Shown here: in pieces, positions 20,101-41,950 of the stretch
Layout: each line of letters opens with the position of its first letter
Position numbering within the stretch: position 1 is the stretch's first letter
IMG/VR virus record: IMGVR_UViG_3300043448_000379
Coordinates: 1 to 42,888 of that record
DNA length: 42,888 nucleotides
Source of the DNA: a virus
Direction: 5' to 3' (one strand)
The notes under the pieces: model-generated
What the model was told of the DNA's origin: nothing
The model's input: only the letters and a program-made list of their open reading frames with translations
Database searches by the model: none
Made by a program: the position numbers and the translations under genes

Positions 20101-22276
20101 TTGTATTTTCTTTAGCAATCTTGATGGCATTATTTGCTTCATCAATAATGGTTTCTCCAGGAATAAACTTACCAGAAAGGGTAGTTACAAAAAGTGTAGA
20201 GACACCACTGAAATTTCCAGTGCTATCATTTTCGATAACACCATATGCTTTACTTTCTCTACCAAAGATATATTTTCCGTTTTCAAAAGTTCCAATTTCA
20301 ATTTCTTTCTCTAATTGAATTTTAGTAAAGAAAACAGGATTAAAATATGTAAATCCAAAAGTAGCATTATATGGTTGATTTGTACCAGTTCTGCCTCTAG
20401 AAATAACAATATCGGTGTCTGGATTAAATCCAGATCCTCTACTTAAAAGTCTTAAATTTTTTGGTTTAGCAACACCAACAATAGGAGTAATGCTGCTATT
20501 GTAATCTACAACGAATCCATATGGGTCTGTAGATGTTTCTACTCCAGATTCTGTTGTGTAGATATATCTTCTGAAATCAGTTTCTCCAGAATCATATTCT
20601 GTAATAAATTTATCCAATACTGCTTTATCACCAAGAATTGTTAATTCGGCAAATACAGCTGTGCTAACAACACTAACTTCTGGTCTATTAACAATTGCTT
20701 TACTAATTACAATAGCACTCTTTCCTTCTACAGTTCCAGTTCCTCTTGTTGTAACAAACCAAACTGTATCTGGTAACTGAGTAGTTTGTGTTGGTTGCTC
20801 GTTAATTACCTGAACATAAATTGTTTTAATCGCTTGCTTTAATTGGAAAGATTGTGATCTTCTGTTGACAGTTGTTCTGAAATAATCTGCTGGTTGTAAT
20901 CCAGAAAATCCAATAGTTCCATCATTAAAAACACTATTGAGTGTTACAGTTGGATATCCAGTTAGTTGATCACCAACTGTATTTAATGGTACACTACCAT
21001 AAACATTGGTTATATTGAATTCTGGAAGTCCTTTGGTTTTTAGAGTTGCGTTATCTCTTGTTAGAGTGTCTCTTCCTTTATCAACTTCTAAAGACTTAGT
21101 TTCTTTGTTTACAATTTCATAACCCTTGACGTATGCTTTACCAGCACTGACGCCTAGAATCATTTTATTATCTGCTTCGACAGGTGAATAGATATTGACT
21201 AAACCAGTTTCAGAATTTAAACTATACAATCCACCGTTTCCATTTTTCTGATAATACTCTCTAATATCAAAATTAAAATCATCTACTACATAGTCACCAG
21301 ATTCGTCGTAAGTTCTTCTAGCTAAAGTTTCTTCGAGGAGAGTGTAATCTGCCGCTCTTACTTGCTTTTCTACTACACCTTTATTAACTTGTAAAAGTTG
21401 AATAAAGTTTTTATCTGTAGTAGCATTATAATCATATCTTTTTAAAACAAGATCAATGCTTAATCTATGAGCACCAGGAGCAGAAGCATTGGAAAATCCT
21501 CTAGCATTATCATATAAGGAAGCATCTTCTTCTGGCGTGACAATATTTTCTTCAATAACAAATCCAACTTTTGCTGATGCTTTATTGTAGTATTTGTCAA
21601 TAATTAGAAGTTGTTTTTGATTTCTAACAAAAAATCCATTGACAAAATACACGCCTTCCTGTACTTCGACAGCAGTAGCATATCCCATCGCTGGGCTTTG
21701 AATAGTAGCTACTGCTCCTGTGATGGGATCTGTTACATTAACACTGGTTGGAAGAACACTACCATCGGTTCCAACAACCAGCAACGGAGTATTAATACCA
21801 TTTACCACCTCCAGAGTTTCTCCCTGTCTGAAGGTGGATTCATTATTAGCATTACCACTAGTAGTGTACTTTACAAACAGAATATCAGCTTCAGTTTCTG
21901 AACCGTATTCTGCTCCAATTACTTGACCAATAACACCAGAGTTAAGTCCTTGTAATTGAGTGTCTACTAGTTGTTTAATGTCATATTTTTTGTATACAAC
22001 CTGACCGTTTTCACTAACAGCCACCTCAGACACAGAAGACAACTTAACGTAATCAAGTTTGGTGTTTAAACCAACTTCACCAGGAATTACTTGTTGACCT
22101 TGTTTAAAAGTAAACCTACCATGATTTTCAATTTGATTTTGGAGAATTGATTGTAGAGAAGTTAGTTCTCTAGTTTGAATCGAATATCCAGGACGAAATA
22201 AAACTTTATAAAAGTTTTTATTTACGTCAAAATCATCATGATAAGGAGATACATTAAGATTTGTCTTCTGTGGCAT
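14195..22276 (-). CDS. Giant DUF4815-type baseplate or fibre protein (2693 aa)
   Basis: The N-terminus (SPYHDDFDVNKNFYKVLFRPGY followed by ELTSLQSILQNQIENHG, residues 11-55) matches the DUF4815 family of phage structural proteins as I remember it. Later segments include YTMRDIGKLEKRIERLEYYT near residue 1350, a likely coiled coil, and NPLAQTFKVENFEGG near 1770, followed by DLFFKKKSSNIPIRAYLTD, which is common in phage fibre-like proteins. GSNYE and GRGYTEPPSV modules sit near 1945-2005 in an unusually GC-rich patch. The ATG has a good ribosome binding site (GGAG). The gene lies directly downstream of gp8, where T4 carries gp9 to gp12. I infer a baseplate-peripheral or short-fibre role; no enzyme motif is visible. 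Confidence 0.85.
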   Translation of the reverse strand: MPQKTNLNVSPYHDDFDVNKNFYKVLFRPGYSIQTRELTSLQSILQNQIENHGRFTFKQGQQVIPGEVGLNTKLDYVKLSSVSEVAVSENGQVVYKKYDIKQLVDTQLQGLNSGVIGQVIGAEYGSETEADILFVKYTTSGNANNESTFRQGETLEVVNGINTPLLVVGTDGSVLPTSVNVTDPITGAVATIQSPAMGYATAVEVQEGVYFVNGFFVRNQKQLLIIDKYYNKASAKVGFVIEENIVTPEEDASLYDNARGFSNASAPGAHRLSIDLVLKRYDYNATTDKNFIQLLQVNKGVVEKQVRAADYTLLEETLARRTYDESGDYVVDDFNFDIREYYQKNGNGGLYSLNSETGLVNIYSPVEADNKMILGVSAGKAYVKGYEIVNKETKSLEVDKGRDTLTRDNATLKTKGLPEFNITNVYGSVPLNTVGDQLTGYPTVTLNSVFNDGTIGFSGLQPADYFRTTVNRRSQSFQLKQAIKTIYVQVINEQPTQTTQLPDTVWFVTTRGTGTVEGKSAIVISKAIVNRPEVSVVSTAVFAELTILGDKAVLDKFITEYDSGETDFRRYIYTTESGVETSTDPYGFVVDYNSSITPIVGVAKPKNLRLLSRGSGFNPDTDIVISRGRTGTNQPYNATFGFTYFNPVFFTKIQLEKEIEIGTFENGKYIFGRESKAYGVIENDSTGNFSGVSTLFVTTLSGKFIPGETIIDEANNAIKIAKENTISHFIVNKRGSSYNSTSDIVINGVTFDQSKIEITLYGGSVAKVIVKNRSAVQTVYSNPPSVTFSTETPSQSDKAVVTPVLFKDTVVTYTPQNVKSFASTFNNYKFTADIDFTSTSYATYTQISDFTFFGSKGSKYIECNGFGADLTGELVQGDIIQFTDANNDVIKCIVQNVTSPSGIEKSRIYLDYALPANVSNATIIRLRPRISNTSATLVFPTGSKQVASLVSDTSNTKFKYHARKDFITDMSTSGGNITFTAQLPVGTQKFVGFNEENFLVTVLSKGSSTIVNNGDIVYIDPRYIEVEESLVSANEVTAGALRIKNLPTSYFGTILDSNYPTLKLTATVEIDKARPRLKTSITNKRVIVIPSGDRVIPLRGQDYDSDIIETFSYSDVYKLRYVYEGTTTNPPVVDNAGNLVSGTDVTYKYNFDDGQRDTYYDVSRIVLKPGFDAPSGQLVIAFDYFEHSQGDFCTVDSYLHEAGVPAEEIPLFNSSVNGIISLRDCIDFRPKVDGNSTITGFQDQSIVSLFDTTDYVTFVGTGGIPTLTPAPDFNLPFTMTFSEKQYLDRVDGLFLTKKGEFIVKKGNSSLNPSKPESVDDAVALCYLHIPAYTKSSKDVRIIPVDNRRYTMRDIGKLEKRIERLEYYTTLSILEQQALNMQVKNEIGLDRFKSGFLVDNFETHKVGNLKSVDYKCAIDTQQSVLRPQAKEDSFALKEINTREDQRVVAGYRVNDNVVTLPFTNVVLLSNQNATTTINPNPFVVIQYVGESIISPQQDSWYDQSVAPLIVDSNTKINSIFLAKQDSNIQDAYSSIYNSFIVNWVGINQVFGNIESFANINSEDIESTVQSASVASSSNVSPQNNEVGKGIATKTIDEKKVASSIQFFARSTPVKFIINRLKPNTKVYVFMEGRDINSWIIPDTRFTGVAANSLSTFGSSLVTDSNGNLSGLILIPAGLPPVPNSPWTGNVDTVNYDEGKEEVRFTTGVKTIRFTSSSTDETKDNVDTYAEVKFYATGLIPANPPSITSTSSAFFKSNEGVQLVDSNTDNPVKPNPLAQTFKVENFEGGVMVTGVDLFFKKKSSNIPIRAYLTDTVSGKPGKNIIPGTQISLTPETYLRVYVTGESETITLSRGELVTGKNSNASGPIDKVFDGNNVRVGDDSSTTFTLNKEQVYTLVLNNHNGNSFLANELLTIQSVTTFNATNNTNVGVFIAKDSGKVVDLRISSVGSNYETASITIESPQLPGGSAATGSINVSGGKVYNAEISLSGRGYTEPPSVVIKGVGTGAAGAVIESVLEIDTPAVRMGVATDVEGVIESTTPTRFNFRHPVYLQNNSEYALAIETDSIEYELWTSKLGEIEISTSNVVTTQPGLGSVYKSQNTDNWTEDLFEDIKFTLYRAEFDISKEAELEVTNENLGYELLNISPFETSVRSATNATSPLFKNNNSIIKVNHRDNGFEDSGKSYVFFRNAEDIGGISNVLLNGTLFKVTNGGIDFYNIASPNNAGSSILGGGSKVLASYNRKYEKLYAQVPYLQLDGTKIDSFVYTTNVVPVDSKTTNYTSYSVEDYEKTFLNEEHFFTNQKMIASRINQTINGLQHSLKYKFRLSSTNSTLSPVIDLRTATVKTVTNRVENATGYENRYGKRDQILTFQPLYILTLSVSGSNAAQVDENKTLVGSLSKAEGFITNYANNDATIRLRTQTPFQQGESLSLYDEQGVLIESVAIQITAIQEIEFNFSKGSNVIAYYPQDTDVNYSNKINGKVVLWDAEDKILIIENSYSPINNNYTTTTTSDVVYARDPEAAEQQPDIFRVGDVVQSTGDDDPIFVEINTMDFTTGIDYVSETDASNSSSVAKYVTKEVSINNPGTSIDVRTTVNLTDVENIKVFYKIREASSAVNFEDINWVPFNLDGNPNNDDLATPTNSISGQFEKQSDYQELIYNVANLPQFTSFAIKLVMKTDNPSYVPKIQDLRAVASY

Positions 22277-37427: not shown

Positions 37428-37503
37428 GGGCGCTGGGAAACGTTTGTAGGTTAGAAAGAAGGTACTTTTTTGGATCGACCCCCCGCTCGGCCGCCTTAAG
37501 TAT

Positions 37504-37532
37504 AAAAAAAGGGGGACAAATCACTGTCCCCT
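37504..37532 (-). terminator. Strong Rho-independent terminator closing the small-gene island
   Basis: A 7-bp stem (GGGGACA with TGTCCCC) and 6-base loop are followed by C and seven T residues on the minus strand. It is 11 nt after the stop of the 66-aa gene. Confidence 0.88.
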
Positions 37533-37764: not shown

Positions 37765-37793
37765 ATTGTACAGGGTAGGGGGCGAGGGGTCAA
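37765..37793 (-). promoter_or_regulatory. Sigma70-type promoter with -35 inside a hairpin
   Basis: The minus strand has TTGACC (37788-37793), 17 nt, TACAAT (37765-37770), 22 nt before the ATG. The -35 lies between a G-run and C-run (37778-37798) that can pair. Confidence 0.75.
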
Positions 37794-37975
37794 CCCCCGT
37801 GATGAAGTCCTGCCCACTCAGCAGCACAGAACCCATCGATACCTGCTTCTGCCAGTGAGGCGCCACAGCGACCCTCACGGTGAGAGTTCATCTGGGGGCG
37901 ACCCTTAACGACGTTGGTGCTGACCCAGATGGTCTGACGGGTCTTGAGGTCGGTTGCTTGGTTGAACAGTGCCAT
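37790..37975 (-). CDS. Hypothetical 61-aa protein, Cys/His-containing C-terminus
   Basis: This gene encodes 61 residues beginning MALFNQATDLKTRQTIWVST. The C-terminal half holds two Cys and three His residues (HREGRCGASLAEAGIDGFCA, then LHHGG), but the spacing does not match a zinc finger I know. It has its own promoter-like element (GTGACC, 16 nt, TACAAT) 25 nt upstream. Its stop lies 47 nt before the next ATG, inside the hairpin-promoter element of that gene, so the extreme C-terminus (the HHGG end) is encoded by repeat-type sequence. Function unknown. Confidence 0.6.
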   Translation of the reverse strand: MALFNQATDLKTRQTIWVSTNVVKGRPQMNSHREGRCGASLAEAGIDGFCAAEWAGLHHGG

Positions 37976-38396: not shown

Positions 38397-38431
38397 GTGT
38401 CGTTTGCTGATGTGATCAGTCTACAGGGTCA
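38397..38431 (-). promoter_or_regulatory. Repeated leader with TAGACT -10 box, copy 2
   Basis: The -10-like TAGACT is at 38418-38423, followed by GATCACATCAGCAAACGACAC to the ATG. The GATCACATC core equals copies 3 and 4, while the GAAACGA part has diverged. Confidence 0.6.
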
Positions 38432-38443
38432 GATGGCAGGATG

Positions 38444-38465
38444 GGGGGCATCGGTGGACACCCCC
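38444..38465 (-). repeat. G-run/C-run intergenic hairpin
   Basis: GGGGG and CCCCC flank a 12-base loop that contains TGTCCACCGATG on the minus strand, 8 nt after the stop of the 93-aa gene. It is one member of the dispersed intergenic element. Confidence 0.65.
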
Positions 38466-38472
38466 TCAACCG

Positions 38473-38754
38473 TCACAGCTCTGCCATCATCTCCAGGATC
38501 TCAGCATGGCAGACGGCAGGATCATTGTATGCCACACCGTCACGGGTGGCAGGTTGATCACAGTTGCTCATGCAACGGATGAACTTATCGTAAGGGGTCT
38601 CATCATCACCACAATACTCTACACATGCTTTGGCAGTATTATAGAGGAAAGGCGAGTTCTGAATCCACAGTGCCACATTCCAGGTCTCGTAATTTGCCCA
38701 CCCGTTGTAGGTATTGTCGCTGGCGTGGTTGGTGATGAAGGATTGAACGGTCAT
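38473..38754 (-). CDS. NGW-NYETW family phage protein (93 aa)
   Basis: This 93-residue protein has the motif NGWANYETW at residues 17-25 followed by NVALWIQN. I recognise this motif from a small protein family common in phages, including cyanophages, and lacking a known function (DUF7249 type, from memory). Four Cys residues (ACVEYCGDD, RCMSNCDQ) and acidic stretches are notable. It has the full repeated leader with a TAGACT -10 box directly before its ATG, and a G/C-run hairpin on both sides, so it is probably a single-gene early unit. Confidence 0.8.
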   Translation of the reverse strand: MTVQSFITNHASDNTYNGWANYETWNVALWIQNSPFLYNTAKACVEYCGDDETPYDKFIRCMSNCDQPATRDGVAYNDPAVCHAEILEMMAEL

Positions 38755-38792
38755 GGGTCGTTTCGTTTCGATGTGATCAGTCTACAGGGTCA
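38755..38792 (-). promoter_or_regulatory. Repeated leader with TAGACT -10 box, copy 3
   Basis: The minus strand has TAGACT (38779-38784) then GATCACATCGAAACGAAACG and ACCC to the ATG. This is the most complete copy of the leader. Confidence 0.65.
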
Positions 38793-38796
38793 GGAT

Positions 38797-38814
38797 GGGG
38801 GATCGGTGTCCCCC
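38797..38814 (-). repeat. G-run/C-run intergenic hairpin
   Basis: GGGGG and CCCCC flank an 8-base loop, 14 nt after the stop of the upstream gene and 13 nt before the TAGACT box region. It belongs to the dispersed intergenic element. Confidence 0.65.
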
Positions 38815-38827
38815 TTGTGCCACTAGC

Positions 38828-39016
38828 TCAGGTGTCCATCCCCATCGCTTCCTTAAGTGCCTTGTATGCTGCCAGGTAGTAGTCTGCGTCAGCGTGGTTG
38901 CCTTTGGCGCGCTCATCACATGCCAGGCACAGCACAGCGGTTCGGATCGTAGACCAGCGGGCCTCGGGCAGGGTGACCGTGGTGAGGGTCTCGGGATTCC
39001 AGAGGGTGGAGAGCAT
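38828..39016 (-). CDS. Hypothetical helical protein (62 aa)
   Basis: I place the start at the ATG at 39014-39016 since the repeated leader and a TATACT box end exactly there; the open frame extends 26 codons further upstream but through the promoter. The product is 62 residues: MLSTLWNPETLTTVTLPEAR, then a helical C-terminal half (HADADYYLAAYKALKEAMGM) that resembles one TPR-like helix pair. It contains two Cys (VLCLACDE). The family is unknown to me. Confidence 0.65.
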   Translation of the reverse strand: MLSTLWNPETLTTVTLPEARWSTIRTAVLCLACDERAKGNHADADYYLAAYKALKEAMGMDT

Positions 39017-39056
39017 CGGTTCGGTTCGTTTCGATGTGATCAGTATAGAGCCCAGG
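39017..39056 (-). promoter_or_regulatory. Repeated leader with TATACT -10 box, copy 4
   Basis: The minus strand has TATACT (39042-39047) then GATCACATCGAAACGAACCG and AACCG to the ATG. The -10 differs from copies 1-3 by one base, while the leader is conserved. Confidence 0.65.
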
Positions 39057-39068
39057 GCGGGGGGATCT

Positions 39069-39090
39069 GGGGGTGGAGTGTGCCACCCCC
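39069..39090 (-). repeat. Perfect 8-bp GC-rich intergenic hairpin
   Basis: GGGGGTGG and CCACCCCC flank a 6-base loop, 9 nt after the stop of the ArdA-like gene. There is no T-run, so termination would depend on the stem alone. Confidence 0.7.
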
Positions 39091-39099
39091 TCAACCGTC

Positions 39100-39528
39100 C
39101 TAGTAGTCGCTGAAGATGGCGACCTGACGGTATTTTACTTCACAAGAGGTGAAATCGTAGCGAAGTGAAGAATCGTAGGTTGCTTGCCAATCGATCACCA
39201 GAGAGGCAGGAATGTTCTCGATGTCGTTGTAGAACTGTTCAGCAAAGTCTGCCTCAGATTCATACCAACCACGGAAGCGTTCATCACACCCTTCGATGTC
39301 AGAAACGTCTCCCATTTCATCGATGAGAGCATCTACAGCATCGTAACCGATTGCTTCACCACAGCGAACATACTCTTCATAATAGTGTACAAAATCGTTC
39401 TCATTGTAGGTATCGATGAACTCCAACATGTCATCGAGAGCATAGTTCTCATCGAGAAGTTCATCAATCTTCTCAACAGTAACCTCAGCAAGGGTTTCTT
39501 TATAGTTAGCAGTCAAGGTGATGGACAT
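39100..39528 (-). CDS. ArdA-like antirestriction protein (142 aa)
   Basis: The C-terminal 75 residues resemble the ArdA family, DNA mimics that block type I restriction enzymes: FRGWYESEADFAEQFYNDIE (ArdA has an AYQG-W-S-E-EDFA-E segment), IPASLVIDWQATYDSSLRYD (ArdA: YIDWEA-A-DL) and a terminal VAIF. Upstream is an acidic region (KIDELLDENYALDDMLEFID) like ArdA domain 2. At 142 residues it is shorter than typical ArdA (about 165) and seems to lack the first domain. The net charge is strongly negative, as expected for a DNA mimic. It has a TATCAT -10-like box 22 nt before the ATG. The assignment rests on recalled motifs, not a search. Confidence 0.68.
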   Translation of the reverse strand: MSITLTANYKETLAEVTVEKIDELLDENYALDDMLEFIDTYNENDFVHYYEEYVRCGEAIGYDAVDALIDEMGDVSDIEGCDERFRGWYESEADFAEQFYNDIENIPASLVIDWQATYDSSLRYDFTSCEVKYRQVAIFSDY

Positions 39529-39549
39529 TGGTTTGGTTGAACTGAAAGA

Positions 39550-39555
39550 ATGATA
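39550..39555 (-). promoter_or_regulatory. -10-like TATCAT before the ArdA-like gene
   Basis: TATCAT lies 22 nt before the ATG, the same distance as in neighbouring genes. I see no good -35 box at 16-18 nt. Confidence 0.4.
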
Positions 39556-39574
39556 GAACAGATTGAACGGGGGT

Positions 39575-39596
39575 GGGGGTATCAGTGGACACCCCC
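39575..39596 (-). repeat. G-run/C-run intergenic hairpin
   Basis: GGGGGT and ACCCCC flank a 10-base loop on the same pattern as the other gaps, 8 nt after the stop of the upstream gene. The minus-strand loop side carries TGTCCACTGAT, as in the copy at 38,444. Confidence 0.65.
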
Positions 39597-40844: not shown

Positions 40845-40872
40845 AGAATACACGAGAAAGGGGGGCAATCAA
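40845..40872 (-). promoter_or_regulatory. Sigma70-like promoter of the six-gene operon
   Basis: The minus strand has TTGATT (40867-40872), 16 nt, TATTCT (40845-40850). The -35-like box is in the loop of the G6/C6 hairpin. TATAAA (40840-40845) is an alternative -10. Confidence 0.55.
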
Positions 40873-40880
40873 TCCCCCCT
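40859..40880 (-). terminator. G6/C6 hairpin followed by TTTC
   Basis: AGGGGGG pairs with CCCCCCT around an 8-base loop, followed by TTTCTC on the minus strand, 23 nt after the stop of the 66-aa gene. It may terminate that gene, and its loop carries the -35-like box of the next unit. Confidence 0.6.
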
Positions 40881-41382: not shown

Positions 41383-41715
41383 TCAACCCAACCTCATCGA
41401 AGAAAAGAAAGGAACAGTGGTCAAACCTTGAGCAGTGTTCATTTGAACAAACCACTCAAACTTCTTCTGAAACACACAATCACCAGTCTCACCATGCTCT
41501 GCCAGAATAGCATTCAGGCGAGATTTGGTGGTGTTGGATTGCCAACCACCATCAAACAGTCGGATGAAGTTATCACCGATATCAGCGATGTGGTTGCCAT
41601 GAAGAAACACTTTGGAGACGTTCTCTGCCTCATCAAAGGTGACACTGGTGTTGCCAGATTGCCAATCCTTGCTGTCACGAATGGCAGCATTCATTTGGCG
41701 TTCGATCTTTCTCAT
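41383..41715 (-). CDS. Conserved phage hypothetical protein (110 aa)
   Basis: The product begins MRKIERQMNAAIRDSKDW, continues with NTSVTFDEAENVSKVFLHGN and IADIGDNFIRLFDGGWQSNT, then TKSRLNAILAEHGETGDCVF. I recall proteins with this KIERQM-x-AI, V-LHGN and W-x-x-x-TT-KSRLNA layout in many phages and some plasmids, none with an assigned function. The pattern of beta strands ending in a helix suggests a compact 70-80-residue domain plus a tail. It is a single-gene unit with one of the best promoters in the window (TTGACT, 17 nt, TATATT) and a strong terminator, so it is likely early and well expressed. Confidence 0.8.
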   Translation of the reverse strand: MRKIERQMNAAIRDSKDWQSGNTSVTFDEAENVSKVFLHGNHIADIGDNFIRLFDGGWQSNTTKSRLNAILAEHGETGDCVFQKKFEWFVQMNTAQGLTTVPFFSSMRLG

Positions 41716-41742: not shown

Positions 41743-41771
41743 AATATAGGGTGGATTGGGGGCAGAGTCAA
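41743..41771 (-). promoter_or_regulatory. Strong sigma70-type promoter with -35 in hairpin loop and over a stop codon
   Basis: The minus strand has TTGACT (41766-41771), 17 nt, TATATT (41743-41748), 28 nt before the ATG. The -35 contains the TGA stop of the upstream gene and lies between GGGGG and CCCCC arms (41758-41776). Confidence 0.78.
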
Positions 41772-41950
41772 CCCCCTGTGGACACTTGCTGAACTGTCAC
41801 ACGACGCTGTGCCACCTCTTCAACCGCCACGATGATACCAGTTTCGGTGAAATATTTCATGGCAAGATCGTGAGCGGTTTCATAATCATCGACGATCTGA
41901 CATTGCCAGCCGCCGATGTTATAAGGTCCAGGAATGAATGCAGCAAACAT
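41768..41950 (-). CDS. Hypothetical 60-aa protein with repeat-encoded C-terminus
   Basis: I choose the ATG at 41948-41950; a TTG two codons earlier is possible. The product reads MFAAFIPGPYNIGGWQCQIV, then DDYETAHDLAMKYFTETGII and VAVEEVAQRR. A beta-helix-beta arrangement is likely. The last 11 residues (VTVQQVSTGG region) are encoded by the same sequence that is untranslated intergenic repeat after the 66-aa gene (GTGACAGTT...CACAGGGGG). It follows the 56-aa gene with a 2-nt gap. Function unknown. Confidence 0.65.
   Translation of the reverse strand: MFAAFIPGPYNIGGWQCQIVDDYETAHDLAMKYFTETGIIVAVEEVAQRRVTVQQVSTGG

Follow-up and report, generated by a model that had tools for sequence, protein, structure and literature searches.

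A candidate sigma-70-type promoter whose −35 box forms the loop of a gene-end hairpin in a T4-like cyanophage fragment and other phages

Promoter-early stem-loop (PeSL) cassettes are known from the T4-like phages RB49, phi1, KVP40 and nt-1 (Arbiol et al., 2010; Comeau et al., 2014, both cited in PMC4503421). For the cyanophage S-PM2, in which PeSLs were sought, a separate host-like early promoter and stem-loops and a low density of PeSLs are reported (PMC4503421). Lambdoid phages carry morons, in which an ORF is flanked by a promoter and a terminator (PMC1524935). Here we describe three elements, E1, E2 and E3, in which a −35 box lies within the loop of a G-C hairpin; they occur in the window, that is, the whole 42,888 bases of IMG/VR record IMGVR_UViG_3300043448_000379. 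Like PeSLs, they join a strong promoter, sigma-70-like by sequence, to a stem-loop within a single short intergenic unit, present in several copies per genome in a region where the genes of a T4-like phage are small and variable. The layout differs, however: in RB49 the hairpin occupies the 17-nt spacer (TTGACAGGGGATCACCGATCCCCTATAAT; at least 12 copies in the genome) or surrounds the −10 box, in KVP40 the −35 box is part of the stem (AAAAGGGTTGACnnnnGTCAGCCCTTT; seven copies), and two of the three window copies lack a U-tract. The window element would resemble PeSLs in its working, with the −35 in the loop as a variant by comparison with the RB49 and KVP40 genomes. As in the lambdoid morons, promoter and terminator would insulate small accessory genes, but there they form two separate sites flanking the ORF whereas here about 50 nt would hold both, one on top of the other. 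A GC-rich stem, a short loop and a position at a gene end are shared with Rho-independent terminators, as is the U-tract in most copies in other phages; unlike these, the loop is a −35 box, and the U-tract is missing at E1 and E3 and partial at E2. No description of a promoter inside a terminator loop was found in the literature searched.

The gp6 baseplate gene product shares 65% identity with those of S-RIM44 and Syn1 and 64% with that of S-PM2, so that the window is, by this comparison, a fragment of a T4-like cyanophage (Kyanoviridae). The genes at 37.1–42.9 kb are small, for the most part have no known function, and run on the minus strand, which is the coding strand at E1, E2 and E3. PeSL cassettes are also credited with effective termination and with mediating recombination and gene shuffling; orthologues of window genes are dispersed in S-PM2, S-RIM32, S-CREM1 and S-SZBM1, with none of the junctions traced to a cassette. 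A search of the window for tRNAs and for Rfam families at gathering score gave no tRNA and zero family matches. The features of the three elements are as follows.

41743–41776, minus strand: composite element E1; 5' arm GGGGG at 41776–41772, 3' arm CCCCC at 41762–41758.
41743–41771, minus strand: putative E1 promoter; −35 TTGACT at 41771–41766 in the loop, −10 TATATT at 41748–41743, spacer 17.
41956–41768, minus strand: ORF upstream of E1; its stop TGA (41768..41770) lies inside the E1 −35.
41383–41715, minus strand: gene downstream of E1; Kyanoviridae Gp96 family (PF23790), function unknown.
40845–40879, minus strand: composite element E2; hairpin GGGGGG-A-TTGATT-G-CCCCCC, −10 TATTCT at 40850–40845, spacer 16.
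37765–37798, minus strand: composite element E3; 5' arm GGGGG at 37798–37794, 3' arm CCCCC at 37782–37778.
37765–37793, minus strand: putative E3 promoter; −35 TTGACC at 37793–37788, −10 TACAAT at 37770–37765, spacer 17.
37975–37790, minus strand: ORF upstream of E3; it stops at a TGA inside the E3 −35.

Read on the minus strand, E1 is GGGGGttgactCTGCCCCC-AATCCACCC-tatatt, in which the hairpin GGGGG-TTGACT-CTG-CCCCC is followed by the tail AATCCACCC and TATATT, and E3 is GGGGGttgaccCCTCGCCCCC-TACCCTG-tacaat, in which GGGGG-TTGACC-CCTCG-CCCCC is followed by the tail TACCCTG and TACAAT. The first-pass annotation had placed these two −35 boxes between GGGGG and CCCCC arms at exactly 17 nt from their −10 boxes, and this is what the sequence holds; both promoters match the consensus at 10 of 12 bases in a promoter scan. 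It had also taken TTGATT at 40867–40872 to repeat the plan. E2 (GGGGGGAttgattGCCCCCC-TTTCTCGTG-tattct) indeed has the hairpin, the TTGA loop and the −10, but its spacer is 16 and both hexamers are weaker; its post-stem tail, TTTCTCGT, is T-rich in part. Predicted hairpin energies are about −10 to −15 kcal/mol. The earlier wording ‘terminator-like’ is apt for the G-C hairpin but not for what follows it, there being no U-tract after the stem at E1 and E3, and a terminator scan of the window lists none of the three elements.

A perfect G-C stem of at least five pairs with TTGA in the loop occurs at exactly three sites in the whole window, which are E1, E2 and E3, and all three have TA...T at 16–18 nt. 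Dinucleotide shuffles in 2-kb blocks (n = 300) gave a mean of 0.003 such hairpins with a −10 (maximum 1) and 0.013 when no −10 was demanded. The promoter scan alone found 14 sites in the window against 13.1 expected, with no excess; the signal is the overlap of promoter and hairpin, and the promoter scan by itself carries no evidence.

The region 37.5–42.2 kb holds, among small ORFs, the three composites and four sibling hairpin/−10 cassettes. The siblings lie within 38418–39596 in a GC-richer block, lack a −35 and are mutually similar, three of the four having TAGACT or TATACT followed by GATCACATC. A canonical terminator lies further along.

38779–38814, minus strand: sibling cassette without −35 consensus; hairpin GGGGG-ACACCGAT-CCCCC at 38814–38797 with its loop in the −35 position (ACCGAT), −10-like TAGACT at 38784–38779.
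38418–38465, minus strand: sibling hairpin GGGGGTGTCCACCGATGCCCCC at 38465–38444; −10-like TAGACT at 38423–38418, no −35.
39042–39090, minus strand: sibling hairpin GGGGGTGG-CACACT-CCACCCCC at 39090–39069; −10-like TATACT at 39047–39042.
39550–39596, minus strand: sibling hairpin GGGGGTGTCCACTGATACCCCC at 39596–39575; −10-like TATCAT at 39555–39550; precedes an anti-restriction-like gene (39528–39100, phrog_36653).
37499–37531, minus strand: canonical terminator GGGGACAGTGATTTGTCCCC; its T-rich tail ends in TATACT (37504–37499), a −10-like hexamer without a −35.

The pattern GGGGGTTGAC N2-8 CCCC, which is silent on the −10, was scanned for in 2.9 million viral contigs and returned at least 120 loci. 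Among the matches listed, 81 of 122 distinct GGGGGTTGAC..CCCC sites carried a −10 (TA...T) at 16–18 nt, compared with 2 of 118 for the permuted −35 control GGGGGTGATC..CCCC (Fisher P = 4e-30); by single spacings, again among the matches listed, TA...T stood at 17 in 65 of 126 sites and at 18 in 17, with 0–13 at the other spacings tested. Upstream stop codons typically fall in the last 40 nt ahead of the −35 or within the hexamer. At E1 and E3 the upstream ORF ends GGG GGT TGA, with the TGA within the −35; a design in which the −35 supplies the stop was considered and rejected, as this TGA is found in 12 of the 81 composites but also in 8 of the 41 sites without a −10 and is therefore nonspecific. 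The full pattern GGGGTTGAC..CCCCTTTT..TATNAT, which comprises stem, −35, U-tract and −10, was found at no fewer than 120 loci in viral contigs and at none once the −35 letters were permuted, while prokaryote genomes yielded 17 occurrences per 257 billion bases, some of which may derive from phage contigs assigned to genome bins. The 126 distinct copies with a spacer of 17 have the consensus aaaaGGGGGTTGACAAnCCCCCTTTTTnTGnTATAATA, which reads as an intrinsic terminator with an overlaid sigma-70 promoter, TTGACA-17-TATAAT; the sixth −35 base, demanded by no scan pattern, is A in 83% of these copies, and the stem ends a median of about 7 nt before the −10. A U-tract follows the stem in 91 of the 126, a share that is partly selected since the second pattern contained TTTT; the cleaner figure is the T-rich tail (at least 4 T within 8 nt after the stem) of 61 of the 81 composites. 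One overlaid copy each in Aerococcus phage AVP (Herelleviridae), Acinetobacter phage Barton and Enterococcus phage VRE9_1 indicates that the design extends beyond the T4-likes.

The association was also examined independently of GGGG stems, by giving the left flank of each promoter-like site a right side taken from another site. At 120 control loci, selected without regard to the −35, 5.3% of promoters had a strong stem spanning the −35 (score at least 20), compared with 0.3% once flanks were swapped; in another locus set, from which the searched sites had been removed, the shares were 8.5% and 0.8%. Over 567 promoter-like sites, a set in which many loci had been fetched for a composite elsewhere so that its rate is not a population rate, 48 strong-hairpin centres lay within 0–10 nt of the first base of the −35 against about 4 after swapping. 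In phages, −35 position, loop and −10 spacing are thus linked far beyond chance, and the overlay that had been read from three sites is real and under selection. The same test was negative in RB49, as expected because its hairpins sit in the spacer. The strong hairpins over the −35 in the 567-site set use 16 different inner arms. Such variation bears on whether the inverted repeat is instead an operator in the DNA, bound by a dimeric regulator of phage or host, the RNA hairpin being incidental. The symmetrical arms on either side of the −35, and the words GTGGCACA and GTGTCCAC that recur beside hairpins in the window and its relatives, would suit an operator. A specific operator would hold both letters and position, however, whereas stem letters vary widely with pairing kept, U-tracts come after stems, and the hairpin of other phages shifts to the spacer or round the −10, which makes this reading highly improbable.

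Two other structured elements were encountered in the control loci. A recurrent conserved phage sequence, CGGGGGTGATCAA(G/A)TCCCCGACCTAAG-N4-CTTAGGATTT, forms two hairpins (L153:302-320, L172, L191, L213, L216, L224 and others), and the two loci checked have several tRNA genes each; an Rfam search with it matched no family (best E 0.46), and it is possibly an undescribed structured element. An abiF RNA match (RF03085, 47.5 bits) lies beside tRNA genes on a viral contig at L153:1139-1175.

The overlay is also conserved at orthologous genes. Relatives of the PF23790 gene were collected by protein only, blind to the DNA motif, and in 13 of the 72 distinct upstream regions the loop of a G-C stem holds a −35-like hexamer with a correctly spaced −10, against 0.01 in shuffles of these regions; of the contigs with a composite, two had also been picked up by the DNA scan and one (L437) is very closely related to the window. 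Because the −35 lies outside the loop in the other 59 of 72, exact overlay is one of several solutions at these promoters: in two regions (L475, L486) the −35 directly follows the hairpin, and in some others the hairpin lies further upstream. Strong hairpins (score at least 17) occur in 42 of 73 PF23790 upstream regions compared with 15% in shuffles, with T-poor tails, the U-tract being absent at E1 orthologues as at E1 itself. In S-PM2 the hairpin of the PF23790 gene is kept with its loop at the −35 position, the hexamer having decayed to TTTCAA. A chance origin, with GC-rich intergenic G and C runs falling near ordinary promoters, would agree with the lack of excess in the promoter scan alone, but is rendered practically negligible by 81 of 122 against 2 of 118, by at least 120 loci against none on permutation, by the 0.003 of the window shuffles and by 13 of 72 orthologues against 0.01.

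Among cultured cyanophages, S-PM2, which belongs to the same virus family as the window, has overlaid copies at positions 22046, 124309 and 145887; these are absent from the S-PM2 account in the portion of PMC4503421 used here. S-RIM32 has overlaid copies at 170577 and 194354. Distinct from the hairpin at the PF23790 gene, an overlaid copy with an 11-bp stem in S-PM2 lies there between a DUF1825 gene and gene 32, and the gene 32 copy is also present in S-RSM4, S-WAM2 and S-H9-2. In the gene 32 leaders of these four phages (L427, L434, L435 and L436 respectively) a further hairpin, for example GTGGTTGGGAGTTCGCAACCAT, separates the composite promoter from the start of gene 32; T4 gene 32 autoregulation offers a comparison. 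In S-CREM1 (L301, upstream of 3229) the loop of CCCCCTGAT..ATCGGGGG contains the −10 box CATACT, which is the second RB49-like arrangement, here in a cyanophage.

We consider it rather probable that each site is a compact boundary element of co-directional early-type genes, in which a sigma-70-type promoter is overlaid on the 3' hairpin of the upstream transcript; for E1–E3, promoter activity, early timing and 3'-end formation are predicted from sequence. The −35 hexamer would serve also as the hairpin loop, while the 3' arm, plus the U-tract where present, would fill the 17-nt spacer, so that the loop would cost the −35 nothing and the spacer would accommodate the rest at no cost. RNA from upstream would fold into the hairpin and end, or be trimmed, at about the point where the −10 box begins; with a U-tract this would be an ordinary intrinsic terminator releasing RNA near the −10 start. 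The new transcript would begin about 7 nt past the −10, downstream of the hairpin, and so escape it. Since the hairpin would be read in RNA and the promoter in duplex DNA, the two functions should not compete structurally. The first-pass annotation had allowed the hairpin to form in RNA or in extruded DNA: RNA suffices, and extrusion is unneeded and unsupported. A cruciform was accordingly rejected, the arms being only 5–7 bp and an RNA hairpin from upstream being enough.

Because most copies elsewhere carry a U-tract, the overlaid unit in other phages would usually be a standard intrinsic terminator with a sigma-70 promoter. At E1 and E3, where it is missing, 3'-end formation is predicted to be the weakest step, and these two may be weak terminators or hairpins that protect or process 3' ends. 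Rho is not known from cyanobacteria, so Rho-dependent release is an unlikely substitute there. In its strict form the alternative is that the promoter acts independently and that the hairpin of E1 and E3 shields the upstream mRNA at its 3' end or marks a cleavage site, with no termination at all. The missing U-tract at E1, E3 and their orthologues speaks for it, as do the T-poor composites (41 of 226 in a sample, several on cyanophage-like contigs). It is nonetheless unlikely, given the T-rich tails in three-quarters of the same-class copies (61 of 81) and at the S-PM2 (124309) and S-RIM32 (170577) copies, where termination would be the usual job.

A further alternative is polymerase recycling, in which the terminating RNA polymerase would stay on the DNA and restart at the overlaid promoter, coupling upstream and downstream expression. 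The short distance from stem end to −10 would leave a terminating polymerase halted on the promoter, and after intrinsic termination RNA polymerase mostly stays on the DNA and is able to initiate again (PMC6978322). As restart is usually antisense in that work, and packing economy accounts for the geometry equally well, such recycling appears very unlikely. Broader still, and in our estimate quite unlikely, is that the −35-in-loop terminator-promoter is a phage-wide convergent control element, rare in cellular genomes, whose geometry hands the terminating polymerase to the next promoter; the reach named for it comprises T4-like cyanophages, a Herelleviridae phage, and Acinetobacter and Enterococcus phages.

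The elements may offer a ready compact insulator for synthetic biology, and natural constructs for asking whether termination is followed by a restart of the same polymerase at the overlaid promoter. For the phages themselves, a single stretch of about 50 nt probably serves as promoter and terminator alike, two objects that annotation treats as separate, and the simple pattern that locates it in many uncultured phages may allow operon boundaries and early genes to be recognized from sequence alone.
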